5,187 bases of DNA from Bacillota bacterium (GTDB lineage Bacteria; Bacillota_A; Clostridia; Lachnospirales; Lachnospiraceae): NCBI GenBank assembly GCA_023443925.1, contig JAEZSL010000159.1:1-5187 (forward strand). The letters run 5' to 3'. The translations under genes were made by a program, and so were the position numbers. Below, one piece after another: positions 1 through 5,187 of the stretch. The notes beneath the pieces are model-generated. The model was given only the letters and a program-made list of their open reading frames with translations, did not search any database and was not told where the DNA came from. How positions within the stretch are numbered: position 1 is the stretch's first letter; every line of letters starts with the position of its first letter.

Positions 1-124
1 TCGGAATAGTGGTTTCCTAATTACCGGAATGTAGGGTTCCTTACCGGAACAGTGGCTCTGTCACACCGGAAGGGTGGCTCTCAAAGTCCGGACAGGTGGC
101 TCAAAGAGCCCCAGAATACTCACA
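1..124 (+). mobile_element. Probable terminus of an IS21-like insertion sequence (tandem ~22-bp repeats)
   Basis: Units beginning CCGGAA or a close variant start at about 1, 24, 44, 66, 88 and 110. The spacings are 20-23 bp, close to two helical turns, and several units continue as GTGGCTC. The last unit is degenerate (CCCAGAATACTCACA) and ends in CACA at 124, so the reverse complement starts with TGTG, as expected for a TGT...ACA-type element end. IS21-family elements carry multiple terminal repeats that bind the IstA transposase, and from memory CCGGAATxGTGGCTC arrays are common at such ends in Firmicutes. The istA/istB genes would lie left of the window and are not seen. The exact boundary at 124 is an inference, because the opposite end and the target duplication are not visible. 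Confidence 0.55.
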
Positions 125-179: not shown

Positions 180-986
180 TTGGGATATGTATTTATTTGC
201 AAGGAATGTGGAAATATTCAGAAGTATGATGAAAAGCAGGGGACTTGGGAATTAAAATGTAAGGTATGTAATGTTCCGATGGATTGGTTAAATAGTTTTC
301 CCCCTCTTAGCGCTTTGGATTTTATAAATACTTCAAGGGATTTATTCGAACAATCTAAAAATTGTGACAAAGATAATTTAGAATATCAACATGAGTTTAT
401 TAGGAAAGATGTAAAATATAATATTGATAAGACAACATTGGATAAGTATAATAATCAATATGAAAAAATGCTCGAAAGATTTCCTGATAACGATGATACT
501 CTTTGGTCAGAGATTGATGATGCTTTTGAAGAAGAACTATGTAAGATAATGGATAAGGAACAAGCTATAGCTATTTTTTCAGCGTTAAGAGTATCTAATA
601 AAAATTATTTTAGAAAGCCGTATATTGTAATAGTTGCGTCATTGATTGAACAATTATTTAACGATTATTTTAGAACAGTAATTTGTAATAATCTTTTGGA
701 ATATGGAAGTAAAGTTTTTATAGAAAAATATAATACTGCCGGAATACAATCTGCGATAGATATAGTTGAGTCGTTTCTAGATGAGAGTTTATATGCAAAA
801 ATGGATAAGTATTCCAAGGGATTTGGTGACAAATGGGCTAGTTTGAGAAGTTTAAGAAATAGCATAATACATAGTAATAATAAATATATAACAAAGATTA
901 AAGTTTCACGAATTAACAAGTTGATTGATGAAAGTTTTGTTGTATTTTCTAATTTGAAAAGTGAAATATACAAACAAAAAAACTGA
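180..986 (+). CDS. Zinc-ribbon plus HEPN-domain protein (putative RNase, defence-like)
   Basis: This 268-aa protein has no specific family that I recognise, but two parts are readable. Residues 8-30 hold a zinc ribbon with CKEC and CKVC knuckles (C8, C11, C27, C30). The C-terminal half is helical. A helix at about 145-168 (around LIEQLFNDYF) is followed by SLRSLRNSIIH at 221-231, in which R226-N227-x3-H231 fits the R-x4-6-H motif of HEPN nucleases, including the polar residue after the arginine. HEPN proteins are typically RNA-cleaving toxins or defence effectors; the zinc ribbon could bind nucleic acid or a partner. The start is TTG with AGGAG 8 nt upstream. The gene begins 55 bp inside the IS21-like end, so the insertion may have removed an upstream partner or promoter. 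No adjacent same-strand partner is visible. The HEPN call is fairly secure by motif; RNase activity and a defence role are inferred. Confidence 0.8.
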   Translation: MGYVFICKECGNIQKYDEKQGTWELKCKVCNVPMDWLNSFPPLSALDFINTSRDLFEQSKNCDKDNLEYQHEFIRKDVKYNIDKTTLDKYNNQYEKMLERFPDNDDTLWSEIDDAFEEELCKIMDKEQAIAIFSALRVSNKNYFRKPYIVIVASLIEQLFNDYFRTVICNNLLEYGSKVFIEKYNTAGIQSAIDIVESFLDESLYAKMDKYSKGFGDKWASLRSLRNSIIHSNNKYITKIKVSRINKLIDESFVVFSNLKSEIYKQKN

Positions 987-1060: not shown

Positions 1061-1085
1061 CCATTATTTGAAAAAGTGGATGAAT

Positions 1086-1131
1086 GTTGAAACTGTTTGC
1101 CTGCTGGAGCAGAAAGCCCAGTAATTCAAAG
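1086..1131 (+). repeat. Repeat A: rlmD 3'-end-like sequence, putative attachment site
   Basis: Read in frame from 1086 this gives VETVCLLEQKAQ and then TAA (1122-1124). It matches repeat C (4028-4073) at 40 of 46 positions, and the core TTGAAAC(C/T)GTTTG is also present in repeat B. HVETV followed by a few hydrophobic residues is the usual C-terminal ending of RlmD/RumA-type 23S rRNA uracil-C5-methyltransferases, and the 3' end of that gene is a known integration site for streptococcal integrative elements. No methyltransferase coding sequence precedes it here, so it is a detached gene end. The att role is an inference. Confidence 0.55.
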
Positions 1132-1141
1132 TTTCTGGTTT

Positions 1142-1249
1142 TTAGAAAGAAAATGGACATGTGTTTTTGAAGATATCAAATAGTTCAAGGAAACTGATTT
1201 TACCCCAGAAGTAGGAATTCTGGAAAAAGACGATGTACTTTTAGCATAA
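1142..1249 (+). pseudogene. Decayed coding remnant of unknown origin
   Basis: One frame reads as protein-like sequence, LERKWTCVFEDIK, then a TAG stop at 1181-1183, then FKETDFTPEVGILEKDDVLLA and a TAA at 1247-1249. The acidic, well-mixed composition after the internal stop suggests a former gene rather than random intergenic DNA. No start codon with an RBS is evident and I do not recognise the family. It sits between repeat A and the DUF6429-like gene. Chance readability over about 35 codons cannot be excluded. Confidence 0.3.
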
Positions 1250-1257
1250 AGAAAAAA

Positions 1258-1273
1258 TTTCGCAAAAGCGAAA
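1258..1273 (+). other. Small hairpin just before the DUF6429-like gene
   Basis: TTTCGC pairs with GCGAAA around an AAAA loop (6-bp stem, 4-nt loop). It abuts the AAGAAGGG ribosome binding region (about 1272-1279), so it could influence initiation at 1286. No T-run follows, so it is unlikely to be an intrinsic terminator. Confidence 0.35.
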
Positions 1274-1285
1274 GAAGGGTTGAAA

Positions 1286-1564
1286 ATGAAGAAAACTTCA
1301 GCAGAGGATGCGGTAAAAGAACTGACACTGGCGTTAATGTATCTGACTAGATTCAGTAAGAAGGATAGATTTTATTCTTCTGAAAATAATGCTTGGAAGG
1401 GATATGCGTTTAGAGCATTGGATGAACTGGAAGAAGAGGGATATATCAATCAGGGCAGTCATCGTTCCAAGTCTGTTCACATTCATGATAAAGGTGTGGA
1501 ACAGGCCAGAGTACTGCTTGAGAAATATGGGATAGCAGAGTGGGAAAAAATAAAAGATTTGTAG
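1286..1564 (+). CDS. DUF6429-like small protein
   Basis: This is a 92-aa protein when started at ATG 1286, which is 6 nt after AAGGG (1275-1279). An in-frame TTG at 1280 directly abuts the same RBS and is a poorer start. The sequence matches my memory of the DUF6429 family: an N-terminal AVKELTLALMYLTRF helix, the central signature AWKGYAFRALDELEEEGYI, then a strand and helix with SKSVHIHDKGVEQARVLL. The order helix, tryptophan-containing turn, recognition-like helix and beta-hairpin is that of a small winged-helix fold, which would suggest DNA binding, but the family function is unknown. The gene ends 31 nt before the ATG of the HEPN/Toprim-associated gene on the same strand, so the two may be co-transcribed; whether they work together is unknown. 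It appears intact. Confidence 0.8.
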   Translation: MKKTSAEDAVKELTLALMYLTRFSKKDRFYSSENNAWKGYAFRALDELEEEGYINQGSHRSKSVHIHDKGVEQARVLLEKYGIAEWEKIKDL

Positions 1565-1595
1565 ATTGTTTTGAAAGGATAATTAAGGAGATGTG

Positions 1596-1667
1596 ATGGG
1601 GGCTTAATCAGAATTTTATATAGGAAAATATAATTTATTTACATCTAAATACACCTATATAGATGAA
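1596..1667 (+). pseudogene. Severed N-terminus of the HEPN/Toprim-associated gene (TAA at codon 4)
   Basis: ATG 1596 has AAGGAG (1585-1590) 5 nt upstream, the best start signal in this part of the window. It reads M-G-A, then TAA at 1605-1607, and then continues in the same frame as SEFYIGKYNLFTSKYTYI and DELMSVF straight into the open frame that reaches 2750. The pattern MGxxxEFYIGKYxxFxSKxxxxxxLMxxF is what I expect at the N-terminus of HEPN/Toprim-associated proteins, so these codons were once translated. The stop could come from a single change of a TAT or TAC tyrosine codon. The rest of the frame shows no further damage, so the mutation is either recent, a sequencing error, or tolerated by reinitiation. 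Confidence 0.75.
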
Positions 1668-2750
1668 TTGATGTCAGTATTTTTAGATAGTAATTTATGT
1701 AATGACGTTCATGAAGAAGAATACTTTTGCCGGTTTGATATGTCTGTTTTAAATTATAAATATAGGTTGGACTTGATGGGATATACCTTAAAAAGAGCGA
1801 AAAGAGAATTTAGTCACTTCTTTGATTATGATAAGTATTTTGAAGATCTAGAGGAAAAATATAAACCTGATATAAGGAAAGTTGATTTTGATTTTTTTGT
1901 AAGTAAATTAAATGAATTTTTAGATAATAGGGAAGAAAATATTGGCGAATCAGAATTGCTTAAGCATATGTTTGATAATGATTGGCCAACTAATAATATA
2001 TTAGGATTTCCAATATCCGATATCAGATTAATTGTCCGTATAATTGCAGAGTTTTGTGATAATGAAGATATAGTTACGTATGATATGACGGATTTAATTA
2101 ATTCTGGTTACTTTATTGAAGGTTTTGATTTTCTGAAATCTGCAAAAAACAATTTAAAAATGATTGGAAAACTATACGATAAAATCATAATTATAACCGA
2201 AGGGAAGGCTGATATTGGAATATTAAGAAAAGCATTTGAATTAAAGTATCAAGAAGAAAAAGAGTTTTTTGAATTTTTTGATTATAGTATTCAACGTTTA
2301 CCTGGAAGCACTTCAGAAGTTTTAAAATTAGTAAAAACATTTGCTACTGTAGGTATCAAAAATAGGACTATAGTATTGTTTGACAATGATACTGCAGGAA
2401 GAGCAGAATTTGAACGTTTTAAGTCTTTAAATATTCCGGATAATATCAGAGGGACTTGCTATCCGAATCTGGAGATTGGAAATAACTATCCTACTATTAA
2501 GGAAGATATATTACATTATGAAGATATTAATGGAAGGGCTGTTAGCATAGAATTATTTTTGGGTGATTCAATCTTGAAGAGGAGGGGCTGCTATTTACCA
2601 ATTGAATGGAAAAATAATAATCAAGGTGTGATTTGTGAGAAAGAAAGTGTGAAAAAGCAGTTTTATAAGATGTGTAAAGAAAATCCAGAAAATATTGACT
2701 GGAAGGATATTGATAAGATATTTCAAATTTTAATAAATGTATTTGTTTGA
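1668..2750 (+). CDS. HEPN/Toprim-associated protein, N-terminally truncated by a nonsense codon
   Basis: This is the open part of the frame: 360 aa from TTG 1668, or 359 aa from ATG 1671. Neither start has a convincing RBS. The intact ancestral product from ATG 1596 would be about 384 aa. The N-terminal half (about 1-165) is charged and helical and corresponds to the HEPN/Toprim N-terminal region. A Toprim domain follows at about 171-300: strand KIIIITEGKAD carries the catalytic-type glutamate E178, RTIVLFDNDTAG carries the D239-N240-D241 pair, and GRAVSIELFLG (289-299) follows. Toprim domains coordinate Mg2+ and cut or process nucleic acid; related proteins occur in defence islands. The metal-binding residues are all present, so the catalytic part is intact even though the start is lost. 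It follows the DUF6429-like gene on the same strand and is followed by repeat B. Family assignment is strong; target and partner are unknown. Confidence 0.8.
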   Translation: MMSVFLDSNLCNDVHEEEYFCRFDMSVLNYKYRLDLMGYTLKRAKREFSHFFDYDKYFEDLEEKYKPDIRKVDFDFFVSKLNEFLDNREENIGESELLKHMFDNDWPTNNILGFPISDIRLIVRIIAEFCDNEDIVTYDMTDLINSGYFIEGFDFLKSAKNNLKMIGKLYDKIIIITEGKADIGILRKAFELKYQEEKEFFEFFDYSIQRLPGSTSEVLKLVKTFATVGIKNRTIVLFDNDTAGRAEFERFKSLNIPDNIRGTCYPNLEIGNNYPTIKEDILHYEDINGRAVSIELFLGDSILKRRGCYLPIEWKNNNQGVICEKESVKKQFYKMCKENPENIDWKDIDKIFQILINVFV

Positions 2751-2813
2751 ATTGAATGCAGAGAAGGCACTCTTCCCTTAAAAAGGTTAGAGTTAGTATA
2801 AACATTTACTTAT

Positions 2814-2870
2814 GGAACTTTGAAACCGTTTGTCTTCTGTAACGAAAAAATGCTAAATCAAAGGATTATG
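2814..2870 (+). repeat. Repeat B: rlmD 3'-end-like sequence, putative attachment site
   Basis: This copy shares GGAAC(T/A)TTGAAACCGTTTGT with repeat C at 19 of 20 positions (2814-2833 against 4023-4042), and TAAATCAAAGGATT exactly (2854-2867 against 4064-4077) at nearly the same offset. In frame from 2819 it reads FETVCLL and then TAA. The sequence between the two conserved blocks has diverged from A and C. It lies between the Toprim gene and the next cargo gene. Interpretation as an att remnant is inferred. Confidence 0.55.
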
Positions 2871-2943
2871 ATTTAGCAGTAAAAATAGAGCGTGTTTGTT
2901 CGAGTAGAATTACATATGCTTTTTAATATCAATCATGTTAGAT

Positions 2944-2948
2944 AGGAG
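2944..2948 (+). promoter_or_regulatory. Ribosome binding site of the 329-aa gene
   Basis: AGGAG lies 9 nt before ATG 2958 and supports that start. I could not identify a convincing -35/-10 pair in the AT-rich stretch between repeat B and this site. Confidence 0.65.
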
Positions 2949-2957
2949 AATTTTATA

Positions 2958-3947
2958 ATGGATTTTTTGACAAGTACTATACTTTCAGGTATAATTTATG
3001 ATCTTATTAAAGAGGGGATGAAGCTAAGCATCAATAATGTGTTTGCATCATATGATGTACATAAAATGGATTATAACATATGTGAAGAATTCATTGAAAA
3101 GATTAATGCGATAGAAGATAAAAATGACAAAGTTGAATATGCAAATGAATTATTAAATAAAGAAAACAAATATACTACGTTGTTTGAACAACAAATGTAT
3201 CCAACTAATTTTTCTAAAAGATTGGATTATGTCCTCGCTCTTATGAACAATTGTGGTTATTTGGAAGATAAAATAAACGTAGAAAGATTAGGTGAATACC
3301 TAGGATTCAAATCTGTAAATGATTTGAAGCAATATTATTTAAAAGATATTGAGCCTGATTATGTATTTATTGAAAATATAGCTAATAAAATGGGTATTAA
3401 TGTTGATTGGATGAAGTATGGACAAGGAGAGCCCTTTGCCTCATCTTTAAGACGTATTTACAATGCAACTGATATACTGAAAGAAGAGGAATTTGACAAT
3501 ATTAGCGAATTTATCTTTGTAATGGATGATGGCAAGTACAGAAGAAATCTTGGTATAATTATAAGAATAGATAAATTTAAGTACAGTTATTATCCAAGAA
3601 CTTTTGTATTTCATGCTGATGTAGGGGCAGGAGGGGCATCAGAGTTATTTACTGTTTATAAGTTTTTAAAAGAATTAAATAGAAATAATAAGATGCCATC
3701 AGGTATTTATAAAGTGACTGAAGAAGAACTTATAAATTTCTTTTCTGGTAAAGTATATCCTGGATCTATAAAGAAGTATAAACACAATGAATGTAATTTT
3801 TTATTAGATGATTTTATAGACTTATATAGATCTGAAAAACACAAAGAAGAGTATAAAAACATGTATGGAGAAACGTTCATAGATTGCCAAGATATTATTA
3901 AAAATAAATTAGACCAGAATCATAATGATATAAAGTCTGGTAACTAG
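2958..3947 (+). CDS. Uncharacterised protein with N-terminal hydrophobic helix and repressor-like HTH
   Basis: This 329-aa protein has no recognised family as a whole. Residues 1-20 (MDFLTSTILSGIIYDLIKEG) form a hydrophobic or amphipathic helix of a type I associate with several uncharacterised bacterial proteins; it may dock to a membrane or to a partner. Residues about 105-160 look like a phage CI/XRE-type helix-turn-helix: VERLGEYLGFKSVNDLKQYY, then IEPDYVFIENIANKMGINVD, then WMKYGQGEPF, which echoes the WLxxGxGxPF end of that domain. Residues about 170-329 are an unassigned mixed alpha/beta region with no catalytic motif that I can name. The start is ATG with AGGAG 9 nt upstream. It is the only gene between repeats B and C, so it would form a one-gene cargo unit. 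It could be a regulator, or a defence protein using the HTH as a sensor or scaffold; the sequence does not decide. Confidence 0.85.
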   Translation: MDFLTSTILSGIIYDLIKEGMKLSINNVFASYDVHKMDYNICEEFIEKINAIEDKNDKVEYANELLNKENKYTTLFEQQMYPTNFSKRLDYVLALMNNCGYLEDKINVERLGEYLGFKSVNDLKQYYLKDIEPDYVFIENIANKMGINVDWMKYGQGEPFASSLRRIYNATDILKEEEFDNISEFIFVMDDGKYRRNLGIIIRIDKFKYSYYPRTFVFHADVGAGGASELFTVYKFLKELNRNNKMPSGIYKVTEEELINFFSGKVYPGSIKKYKHNECNFLLDDFIDLYRSEKHKEEYKNMYGETFIDCQDIIKNKLDQNHNDIKSGN

Positions 3948-3949
3948 GT

Positions 3950-3967
3950 GGGGTAAATCTTTACCTC
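3950..3967 (+). terminator. Weak hairpin just after the 329-aa gene
   Basis: GGGGTAAA can pair with TTTACCTC, including one G-T pair. With a realistic loop this leaves about 7 bp. It begins 3 nt after the TAG stop and is followed by TTCT rather than a clear T-run, so termination would be weak. It includes the GTAAATCTTTACC motif also found near repeat A, which offers another explanation. Confidence 0.35.
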
Positions 3968-4022
3968 TTCTAGTAAAAACAGCATCGTAGTTTTGCCATG
4001 TAATATAAAACTTCTGTCAAAA

Positions 4023-4080
4023 GGAACATTGAAACCGTTTGTTTGCTGGAGAAGAAAGCCCAGTAAATCAAAGGATTCCG
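4023..4080 (+). repeat. Repeat C: best-preserved rlmD 3'-end-like sequence, putative attachment site
   Basis: In frame from 4028 it reads IETVCLLEKKAQ with TAA at 4064-4066, the closest of the three copies to a methyltransferase C-terminus. It matches A over 46 bp (six differences) and B over the GGAAC..TTGAAACCGTTTGT block and the TAAATCAAAGGATT block. The following CCGGCATTTCGAGGGTGT and the T-rich stretch to about 4120 could be the worn-down terminator of the original gene. The upstream bases are not methyltransferase coding sequence, so the gene body is absent. The att role is inferred. Confidence 0.6.
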
Positions 4081-4194
4081 GCATTTCGAGGGTGTTATGT
4101 AGCTGTGTTTTTATGTTTTGTTGATTGAAATATGTTTCCGGTTACCGTGGTGGGGGATGGAAAATGAACGTTTTGACAAAAGGTTTTGATTCTG
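4081..4194. other. Intergenic stretch between repeat C and the IS66 remnant
   Basis: No gene is supported here. It contains T-rich sequence (about 4105-4125) and a G-rich patch (GTGGTGGGGGATGG, about 4148-4161). The last 25 bases (from about 4170) may already be very degraded IS66 coding sequence, since one frame there (KVLILSNKYLG across the boundary) resembles the usual approach to the conserved C-terminal block. Confidence 0.4.
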
Positions 4195-4590
4195 TCAAAT
4201 AAGTATTTAGGTCTTGTAGCTGAAAGCTAAATCGGAATTTGTAGATAAATCTACCTTGAAGATGGGAGAATTCCACTTTCTATCAATCTTTGTGAAGCAA
4301 ATATTTAGCCATTTGCAACTACAAGACGTGCCTGGCTGTTTGCAGATACTCCAAAGGGGGTCAGGGCTAACGCTGTCTTGTAAACGCTGTTGGAAAGTGC
4401 CAGAGCCAATCATCTGGATGTGTATGAATATTTGAAATGTCTTCTTGAAGAGATGCCAAACAACAATCATCTCTAACACCCAGAACTTCTGAATCAATAT
4501 CTTCCATGGTCAAAGGAACTGCCTGACAGATGCCGGCTTACATTAAAACATAAAAAATGCTTCAAAAATGATGCCTTCAGCTTAGCATAA
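4195..4590 (+). pseudogene. tnpC: IS66-family transposase (TnpC) C-terminal remnant
   Basis: One continuous frame keeps the C-terminal signatures of IS66 transposases: YLEDGRIPLSINLCEANI, then PFATTRRAWLFADTPKG, then LLESARANHLDVYEYLKCLL and LPWSKELPDRCR, ending at TAA 4588-4590. The frame is broken by stops at 4228-4230, 4246-4248, 4306-4308, 4381-4383 and 4474-4476, and the DDE catalytic region upstream is missing. Intact TnpC proteins are about 500 aa, so only roughly the last quarter survives and it cannot be active. The frame has suffered substitutions rather than frameshifts. The element was probably inserted near the island boundary and then eroded; it is not obviously linked to the cargo genes. 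Confidence 0.88.
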
Positions 4591-4693: not shown

Positions 4694-4726
4694 TAAGGTC
4701 TCCTACAAGAAAAATAGGAGACCTTA
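4694..4726. terminator. Strong 12-bp hairpin between converging units
   Basis: TAAGGTCTCCTA (4694-4705) pairs perfectly with TAGGAGACCTTA (4715-4726) around a 9-nt A-rich loop. It lies between the plus-strand IS66 remnant and the minus-strand membrane-protein gene, where a bidirectional terminator would be expected. No U-tract directly follows the stem on either strand, so it may instead be a repeat element or an RNA-stability structure. Confidence 0.5.
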
Positions 4727-4795: not shown

Positions 4796-5187
4796 TCAGT
4801 TAGAACTCTTATATCTTTTCCATTCCAACAAACTATTCAAAAATGAGCTAAGAAATAAGGTGAAACATATAAGTGTTTCTGGTTGAGCAAAAATATAGGT
4901 AATAAGCTTTCTGGATATAATTAGTAAATATACTACAACTACTAGGGTTGCCACCCCATCTACAACTACTCTATGAATCGAGTAAACTTCCAGCCTAATA
5001 TGTTGGCGAAAAAAAAGTAAAAGTCCTAAACTACAAGGAAAGAGCAGTCTCATTACCATAATTGGGTATAGATAAGTATAATATTGTCGATTAAGTTGAG
5101 TATAATATTTTATTAATTCAATACCACCAATCAATATAATCAGGCATGCTAATGTAAACAAAAAGAAGAGAAGTGTATTCTTTTTCA
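4796..5187 (-). CDS. Small multi-pass membrane protein, 5'-partial
   Basis: The minus-strand frame is open to the window edge and stops at TGA 4796-4798. An internal TTG at 5159-5161 could start a 121-aa product. However, the frame continues upstream as KKNTLLFFL, and the two bases before it are TG, so an ATG may lie one base beyond the window, giving about 130 aa and a typical MKKNTLLFF-type membrane N-terminus. About four hydrophobic segments are visible: the N-terminal one (LLFFLFTLACLIILIGG), one around YPIMVMRLLFPCSLGLLLFF, one around VVDGVATLVVVVYLLII and one around ICFTLFLSSFLNSLL. The positively charged end WKRYKSSN would probably be cytoplasmic. I do not recognise a family. It converges on the island genes and may belong to the neighbouring region. 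Confidence 0.65.
   Translation of the reverse strand, partial: KKNTLLFFLFTLACLIILIGGIELIKYYTQLNRQYYTYLYPIMVMRLLFPCSLGLLLFFRQHIRLEVYSIHRVVVDGVATLVVVVYLLIISRKLITYIFAQPETLICFTLFLSSFLNSLLEWKRYKSSN

Follow-up and report, generated by a model that had tools for sequence, protein, structure and literature searches.

Putative rlmD-end attachment sites between small, integrase-less gene units in DNA of a probable Lachnospiraceae bacterium

Repeats and genes of the window

The DNA analyzed here, called the window, is an entire stretch of 5,187 nt, and its host is most likely a member of the Lachnospiraceae. It contains three copies of a repeat, named A, B and C in order, with small genes between them, and is a piece of a chromosomal array of one- and two-gene units that are often defence-like. 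In our preferred explanation, to which we assign a probability of about 0.78, the repeats are attachment (att) sites of the rlmD-end type that separate serially accreted, cassette-like units without integrases, and serine integrases are the enzymes most likely to act on them. The gene rlmD encodes a ribosomal-RNA methylase, and its end serves phages and other mobile elements for insertion. The repeats lie as follows:

1082..1162, + strand: copy A, attachment site of the rlmD-3'-end type, left arm of type 1 (AAAGCCCAGTAATTCAAAG); 49.4 bits
2814..2880, + strand: copy B, degenerate rlmD-end site; 28.0 bits
3946..4107, + strand: copy C, alpha right arm (GGGGTAAA..TTACC.. GTTTTGCCATGTAATATAAAA), core and type-1 left arm; 84.0 bits (3986-4107) and arm alignment

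The core TTGAAAC(C/T)GTTTG starts at 1087 (A), 2820 (B) and 4029 (C), with a spacing of 1733 bp from A to B and 1209 bp from B to C. In frame, the copies read NVETVCLLEQKAQ, NFETVCLL and NIETVCLLEKKAQ, respectively, each followed by a stop. The bit scores come from a profile built from 25 copies, all outside the window; the next-best window match had 2.4 bits and the best of 200 dinucleotide shuffles 5.0. This outside model confirms the original prediction of three repeats with a shared core and an ETVCLL frame, and the 40 of 46 matching positions claimed there for A and C fit the 86% agreement over 50 positions found in the top family of the window repeat search. The repeat extends further than was described then. 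Copy C has a conserved upstream arm from about 3946, and the downstream arm is conserved at copies A and C and degenerate at copy B. No Rfam family matches the repeat region, an exact 23-mer of copy C has no occurrence in the genome-contig collection, and the window has no match in the plasmid collection.

The genes and remnants around the copies are:

180..986, + strand: 268-aa open reading frame (ORF), cargo upstream of copy A; weak zinc-ribbon-like N-terminal match, nothing above the Pfam cut-off
1280..1564, + strand: DUF6429 gene, 93-94 aa, first in the 1.7-kb unit; PF20008, E 2.8e-25
1668..2750, + strand: HEPN/Toprim gene, 360 aa, defence-like cargo; PF18871, E 5.7e-10, and a weak PADLOC GajA match, E 1.1e-4
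2958..3947, + strand: HetE-N-domain gene, 329 aa, sole cargo of the 1.2-kb unit; PF20701, E 4.3e-15
about 4309..4590, + strand: frame-broken C-terminal remnant of an IS66 transposase, third unit; DDE_Tnp_IS66_C on 4384-4473, E 8.3e-8

The unit that holds the 268-aa ORF has its left end outside the window or at the window edge. The IS66 remnant, which follows copy C, had been missed by the original prediction. A Pfam scan of the five window ORFs found no recombinase, the remainder of the third unit extending past the window; the earlier claim that no integrase lies between the repeats held for these ORFs, those of the 1.7-kb and 1.2-kb units included. The five window proteins contain no tyrosine-integrase domain, a negative limited to them, as no search for such enzymes was made in the rest of the islands.

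Relation of the repeat to rlmD and its distribution

Relatives were sampled through homologues of DUF6429, which led to an Anaerosacchariphilus (L001) and to Lacrimispora xylanisolvens (L005). Homology between the window and L001 (5799-6263) runs from about 1084, at copy A, through DUF6429, with 74% identity over 471 columns, and the DUF6429 relative of L001 occupies the same place behind the repeat. Repeat copies are also present in L005, whose positions 7450-7695 are 69% identical to the region of copy C over 252 columns. In both relatives an rlmD-family gene (TIGR00479) precedes the copies on the same strand and ends in the repeat, its final codons reading ...NVETVCLLSRKP and ...HVETVCLMERKAQ up to the stop. 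A model was built from six copies, including one of the window, and searched in both whole genomes, where 150 of about 1,600-1,800 first-look candidates were scored per genome. Among the scored candidates seven matches were better than 1e-5, and all were rlmD's own end or lay at most 53 kb downstream of it. A second rlmD-like gene of genome G001 gave a weak match to the same model (E 0.0057).

The repeat was surveyed in 25 genomes of one genus, which has three classes (I, II and III) of rlmD-like paralogs. At a threshold of E 0.01, 23 genomes had a match and 67 matches were found in total: 20 are an rlmD's own end, 38 follow a paralog on the same strand at a distance of no more than 70 kb, and the other 9 fit neither description. 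Thus 38 of the 47 copies that are not an own end sit closely behind a paralog, where about one is expected at a chance rate of roughly 2% per copy, a rate that assumes 3 paralogs and a 5-Mb genome and treats as independent the copies of one array, which are not. A family survey with stricter filters gave matches at 1e-5 in 29 of 200 genomes. In seven of 12 regions taken from these genomes, the first copy is the end of an rlmD, of class I, II or III. When 40 rlmD ends were compared, the tails were very variable after H/N-V-E, even within one genus, as expected if insertions exchange the tail. As sequence comparisons, these data show that the repeat derives from the 3' end of rlmD (rumA). The resemblance to rlmD ends that had been proposed earlier is thus found in L001, in L005 and in the seven family regions.

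Units, arms and candidate integrases

Forty-eight intervals between neighbouring copies were listed as units, the two of the window included, with some copy positions set by hand. Thirty-nine are no longer than 4 kb, and these have a median of 1.63 kb and a minimum of 0.47 kb; similarity to an integrase was seen in one of them, over a fragment of 98 aa (G013_III 2040-4365). In seven family members, F031, F051, F149, F156, F165, F188 (behind rlmD) and F173, the units agree at both ends: over about 185 bp on the left, at 83-93% identity, and over 33-144 bp on the right, at 85-96%. Their cargo differs: F031, F051, F156, F165 and F188 carry five unrelated cargoes, and F149 has no clear gene. F031 and F173 have the whole unit in common, at 94% over 2,036 bp, in different surroundings. 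In F051, F156 and F165 the cargo ORF starts with a leader derived from the left arm (MAKGYFFAKE/A). In the aligned arms, the left ones carry AAAGCCCARTAAATCAAAGG and the right ones TTTCGCCATGTAGTATAAAA or a sequence very near to these. Another type of left arm (CTTGATTTTATGCGG) is frequent as well, and there are still other types of arm.

In a sample of 40 hand-picked cargo proteins, 21 had a Pfam match at E 0.001, some of them below Pfam's own cut-off, and 19 had none at that threshold. Restriction-type matches include Mrr, HNH, type I methylase, GIY-YIG and YhcG, and SMEK and FRG were also found; further matches are glyoxalase, acetyltransferase, 2-hydroxyacid dehydrogenase and regulators. 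PADLOC matched 6 of 10 proteins scanned at 1e-4, three being prophage MkoA/MkoB-like genes. In this sample the cargo is often defence-like but mixed. Two cargo proteins, at 13557-14516 of L041 (L. xylanisolvens, with DUF6429) and at 8297-9412 of L150 (another family member, with a DUF6602 gene), appear similar by eye, and a SEC-C motif was detected in the latter.

Several units recur at different loci. The same left arm and a glyoxalase-like gene were found behind class I (G003), class II (G023) and class III (G021, G010) paralogs, the sequences diverging beyond the gene. G007 (behind rlmD III) and G023 (in its class II array) have a segment with a DinG-like gene in common, at 97% identity over 2.1 kb, but with different left arms. 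In the class II island, a stretch of at least 2.9 kb that ends at one core is common to G007, G008, G022 and G023; beyond this core, G022 and G023 have the glyoxalase unit and G007 and G008 other content. The left and right flanks join at a single core in G008, and in G023 two units, together 4,265 bp, lie between two cores; the sequences switch within TCAACACATGTTGA, which encodes H-V-E of RlmD. These comparisons show an exchange of cargo and a clean insertion or deletion between sites. A site without insert and the same cargo between such repeats elsewhere had been named earlier as things to look for. The first is represented by G008, a different species that lacks the 4,265-bp block of G023, and the second by cargo shared among different rlmD paralogs. 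Of the two outcomes named as refuting the prediction, neither was found in relatives: their rlmD 3' ends do resemble the repeat, and the copies are not fixed, since the content between them differs from genome to genome and the block of G023 is missing from G008. The original prediction, an att-site array from rlmD insertion with small integrase-less cargo units, is therefore supported in relatives, and the window's own host presumably has the same layout.

The island recombinases that were scanned are of the serine type (phrog_95 / PF07508). A recombinase encoded outside the window had been named earlier as something to look for, and in relatives such islands do encode recombinases elsewhere. 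One element is the following:

G002 5839-52163: prophage of 46 kb in L. xylanisolvens, adjoining rlmD III

It has genes for terminase, portal, head protease, major head protein, tape measure and amidase, and two overlapping serine integrases of 428 and 474 aa (phrog_95), followed by MkoA/MkoB-like genes and then an alpha right arm. With a left arm of the second type (type-2) at its other end, it is bounded by rlmD-type att sites, and the presence of head, tail, lysis and integrase genes between them is that of a temperate phage. The Mokosh-like (MkoA/MkoB) genes between the paired integrases and the right arm (L041:7677-12120) resemble a defence slot at the prophage end. In the genus, close relatives of the integrase pair were found only in G020 (81% and 92%, the 81% match interrupted by one stop), again behind rlmD III. 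In a hand tally of 32 related integrases, 8 follow a class II or III rlmD on the same strand at a distance of up to 70 kb, and the count rises to 17 at up to 120 kb, a limit that was chosen post hoc with the data already seen; 11 of the remaining 15 are on contigs without a listed rlmD.

Three stretches of viral contigs contain a 20-mer of the type-1 left arm. One of them, L167, has this arm beside phage genes; 7 of 10 ORFs tested there, DNA polymerase and exonuclease among them, are 43-78% matches to the G002 prophage. In L168, a cassette starting MAKGYFFAKE lies behind tail and endolysin genes. The arms of the small units therefore also occur on rlmD-type phages. A right-arm 17-mer was found in eight viral stretches, of which six look like chance and two (L165, L166) fit the model. 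The sequences thus show that arms are shared and that a prophage combines arms of this kind with paired integrases. Because the unit arms match those of a temperate phage, phage integrases are the first candidate actors on the small units. Two stretches that looked by eye like serine-recombinase fragments, L001 7298-7648 and L005 11093-11326, were rejected, since tblastn with nine island recombinases gave no match at E 1e-3. In a different element family (G010_III, G023_II, G024_II), an rlmD-type core is followed after about 140-160 bp by a serine integrase of 417-423 aa; this family has a different left arm, and its tails end ..EVVVLLQR, ..ESIVLLQR and ..ESIILLQRKNS before the stop.

In a typical unit, one to three cargo genes lie between two conserved arms, of which the left one measures about 150-185 bp. 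Most likely, elements that reside in the same host and have related arms, for instance the rlmD prophage of L. xylanisolvens, supply serine integrases that recombine at the H/N-V-E codons, which would exchange the RlmD tail and insert, stack or remove units. That the units move singly, and not as blocks or as leftovers, is possible, but we put it below even odds.

Several observations weigh against this explanation. Five of the 12 family regions have no rlmD within the stretch sampled, and 9 of the 47 copies in the genus are not within 70 kb of rlmD on either strand. For three of these nine, no rlmD is listed on the contig (G005 C119, of 32.5 kb, with two copies, and G003 C12 with one), those of G020 and G015 lie 85 kb and 154 kb downstream, and one on G023 C2 is 838 kb away. 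The remaining three, on G014 C45, are preceded on their strand, at a distance of 163-172 kb, by a class II paralog, and a related integrase pair sits in the intervening DNA. The related integrases are linked to rlmD only in part (8 of 32 within 70 kb). The right arms of copies A and B have diverged, so that these two junctions may be inactive. The left-arm type of the proposed helper differs from that of the window copies, and a type-1 left arm together with an integrase gene in one element was not seen. Finally, serine integrases are usually directional, which leaves stacking at attL/attR-like sites unexplained.

Competing explanations and known systems

The strongest alternative is that the units are leftovers of decayed prophages or integrative and conjugative elements (ICEs), that is, cis-mobilizable elements (CIMEs), in which internal deletion spared the ends and some cargo and which were never small mobile units. 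We consider this possible, though rather doubtful. Formation of CIMEs through decay is documented (PMC5704250), integrase-like fragments occur in two listed units (76 aa in F156 12714-19463 and 98 aa in G013_III 2040-4365), a terminase gene follows the array in F188, the window has an IS66 remnant, and the prophage arms resemble the unit arms. However, the five unrelated cargoes of F031, F051, F156, F165 and F188 have the same limit of the approximately 185-bp left arm and the same right arm, one entire unit is 94% identical in two genomes with different surroundings (F031, F173), and the same cargo is found at different rlmD paralogs. Decay is less economical here because it needs repeated independent deletions to the same limits.

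The three rlmD-like paralog classes of the genus could suggest that the copies arose by homologous recombination or gene conversion among paralogs instead of site-specific integration, but this is very improbable: the inner copies join the last rlmD codons to arms that are not rlmD, those inspected have no rlmD coding sequence upstream, and copies of the genus survey never lie within 70 kb upstream of rlmD or on the opposite strand. Still less credible, and rejected, is the idea that the repeats are promoter, leader or regulatory elements before each gene and only incidentally like rlmD, for although a gene begins 193 bp after the start of copy A and 138 bp after that of copy B, the right arm has a TATAAAA-like box and the left arm can provide a start codon (the MAKGYFFAKE leader), rlmD genes themselves end in the repeat sequence, copies cluster downstream of rlmD, the unit insertion or deletion breaks at the core and Rfam gave no match.

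Parts of the preferred explanation, att sites of rlmD type between accreted units, have precedents. In Streptococcus, ICEs and integrative and mobilizable elements in rumA use a single serine integrase and exchange the C-terminal tail of the methylase (PMC4701971, PMC5704250). The islands studied here are alike in target gene, in the serine integrase as candidate enzyme and in tail exchange. The Streptococcus elements have direct repeats of 2-21 bp, one end inside the integrase gene, and conjugation or mobilization modules, whereas our units are mostly of one to three genes, integrase-less and in tandem. Their ends are copies of the rlmD 3' end, as the rlmD ends of relatives show, and a serine integrase of their own was not found in the five window ORFs and was hinted at in 1 of 39 small units by a 98-aa similarity. 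Since no integrase of their own was seen, the window units were not filed as autonomous rlmD/rumA elements.

Tandem islands downstream of ssrA in Dehalococcoides are flanked by direct repeats of the 3' end of this conserved gene within 100 kb, and have a CcrB-like serine recombinase; 15 without an integration module were proposed to be cis-mobilizable (PMC3146451). Their target is ssrA (tmRNA) and their cargo rdhA and others, while here the target is rlmD in three paralog classes, 39 of the 48 listed units do not exceed 4 kb, arms are shared among units, and a prophage has such arms. The staphylococcal (SCCmec) and Enterococcus (ECC) cassette chromosomes use serine recombinases at the 3' end of the methylase gene rlmH, with att repeats of about 50 bp and variable cargo, and 16 of 32 ECCs have multiple attR sites (PMC6222049). 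ECCs span 21-78 kb and carry ccrAB at rlmH, in contrast to the rlmD-family target (TIGR00479) here. The rumA target with its serine enzyme class and tandem islands with gene-end repeats are thus already known, from Streptococcus and from Dehalococcoides ssrA (similarly SCC/ECC), respectively. CIMEs have lost integration and transfer genes, are flanked by att sites and accrete in tandem (PMC5704250). Our units are likewise flanked by att sites and arranged in tandem, and neither integrase nor transfer genes were found in them (five window ORFs); unlike in the CIME definition, shared arms and cargo exchange suggest discrete units.

Integron gene cassettes are one-gene units of diverse cargo with one recombination site between neighbours, and are moved by a tyrosine integrase at folded attC sites. 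The units described here are similar in having few genes, diverse cargo and one site between neighbours, and differ in their serine-integrase candidates and rlmD-type sites. A speculative possibility is an integron-like cassette system, in which phage-type serine integrases would act in trans, rlmD would be the entry site, cassettes of 0.5-3.5 kb with standard ends would move singly, and the integrase-supplying phage would itself be a member of the array. If so, arrays of defence genes would be built by the very elements they defend against. If the preferred explanation is right, the Lachnospiraceae offer a place (behind rlmD paralogs) and a mark (arms and core) for finding small uncharacterized defence and other genes, in keeping with the 19 of 40 cargo proteins without a Pfam match, and a testable case of integrase-less cassettes on phage-type attachment sites. 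No description of rlmD-bounded arrays of small standard-end units was found in the titles and abstract beginnings of the open-licence PMC articles retrieved with the terms used.

Some minor features were also noted. The DUF6429 relatives P0006, P0011 and P0013 carry the database name 'transposase'. In the window and in L001, DUF6429 is the first gene of an att-bounded unit, and the label may reflect an IS66 neighbourhood. These names prompted the idea that the repeats belong to an IS66 element, as its ends or as pieces of its interior. It was rejected because rlmD genes have the repeat as their 3' end and because it is found again and again between units whose cargo is unrelated. An open frame of 129 aa on the minus strand (window 4796-5185), membrane-protein-like by eye and without a Pfam match, runs off the window. 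A perfect 12-bp inverted repeat at 4694-4726 (TAAGGTCTCCTA/TAGGAGACCTTA, 9-nt loop) is terminator-like by eye. Several spaced ACCGGAA..GTGGCTC-like copies at window 1-120 resemble multiple terminal repeats of an insertion sequence, presumably IS21-like.

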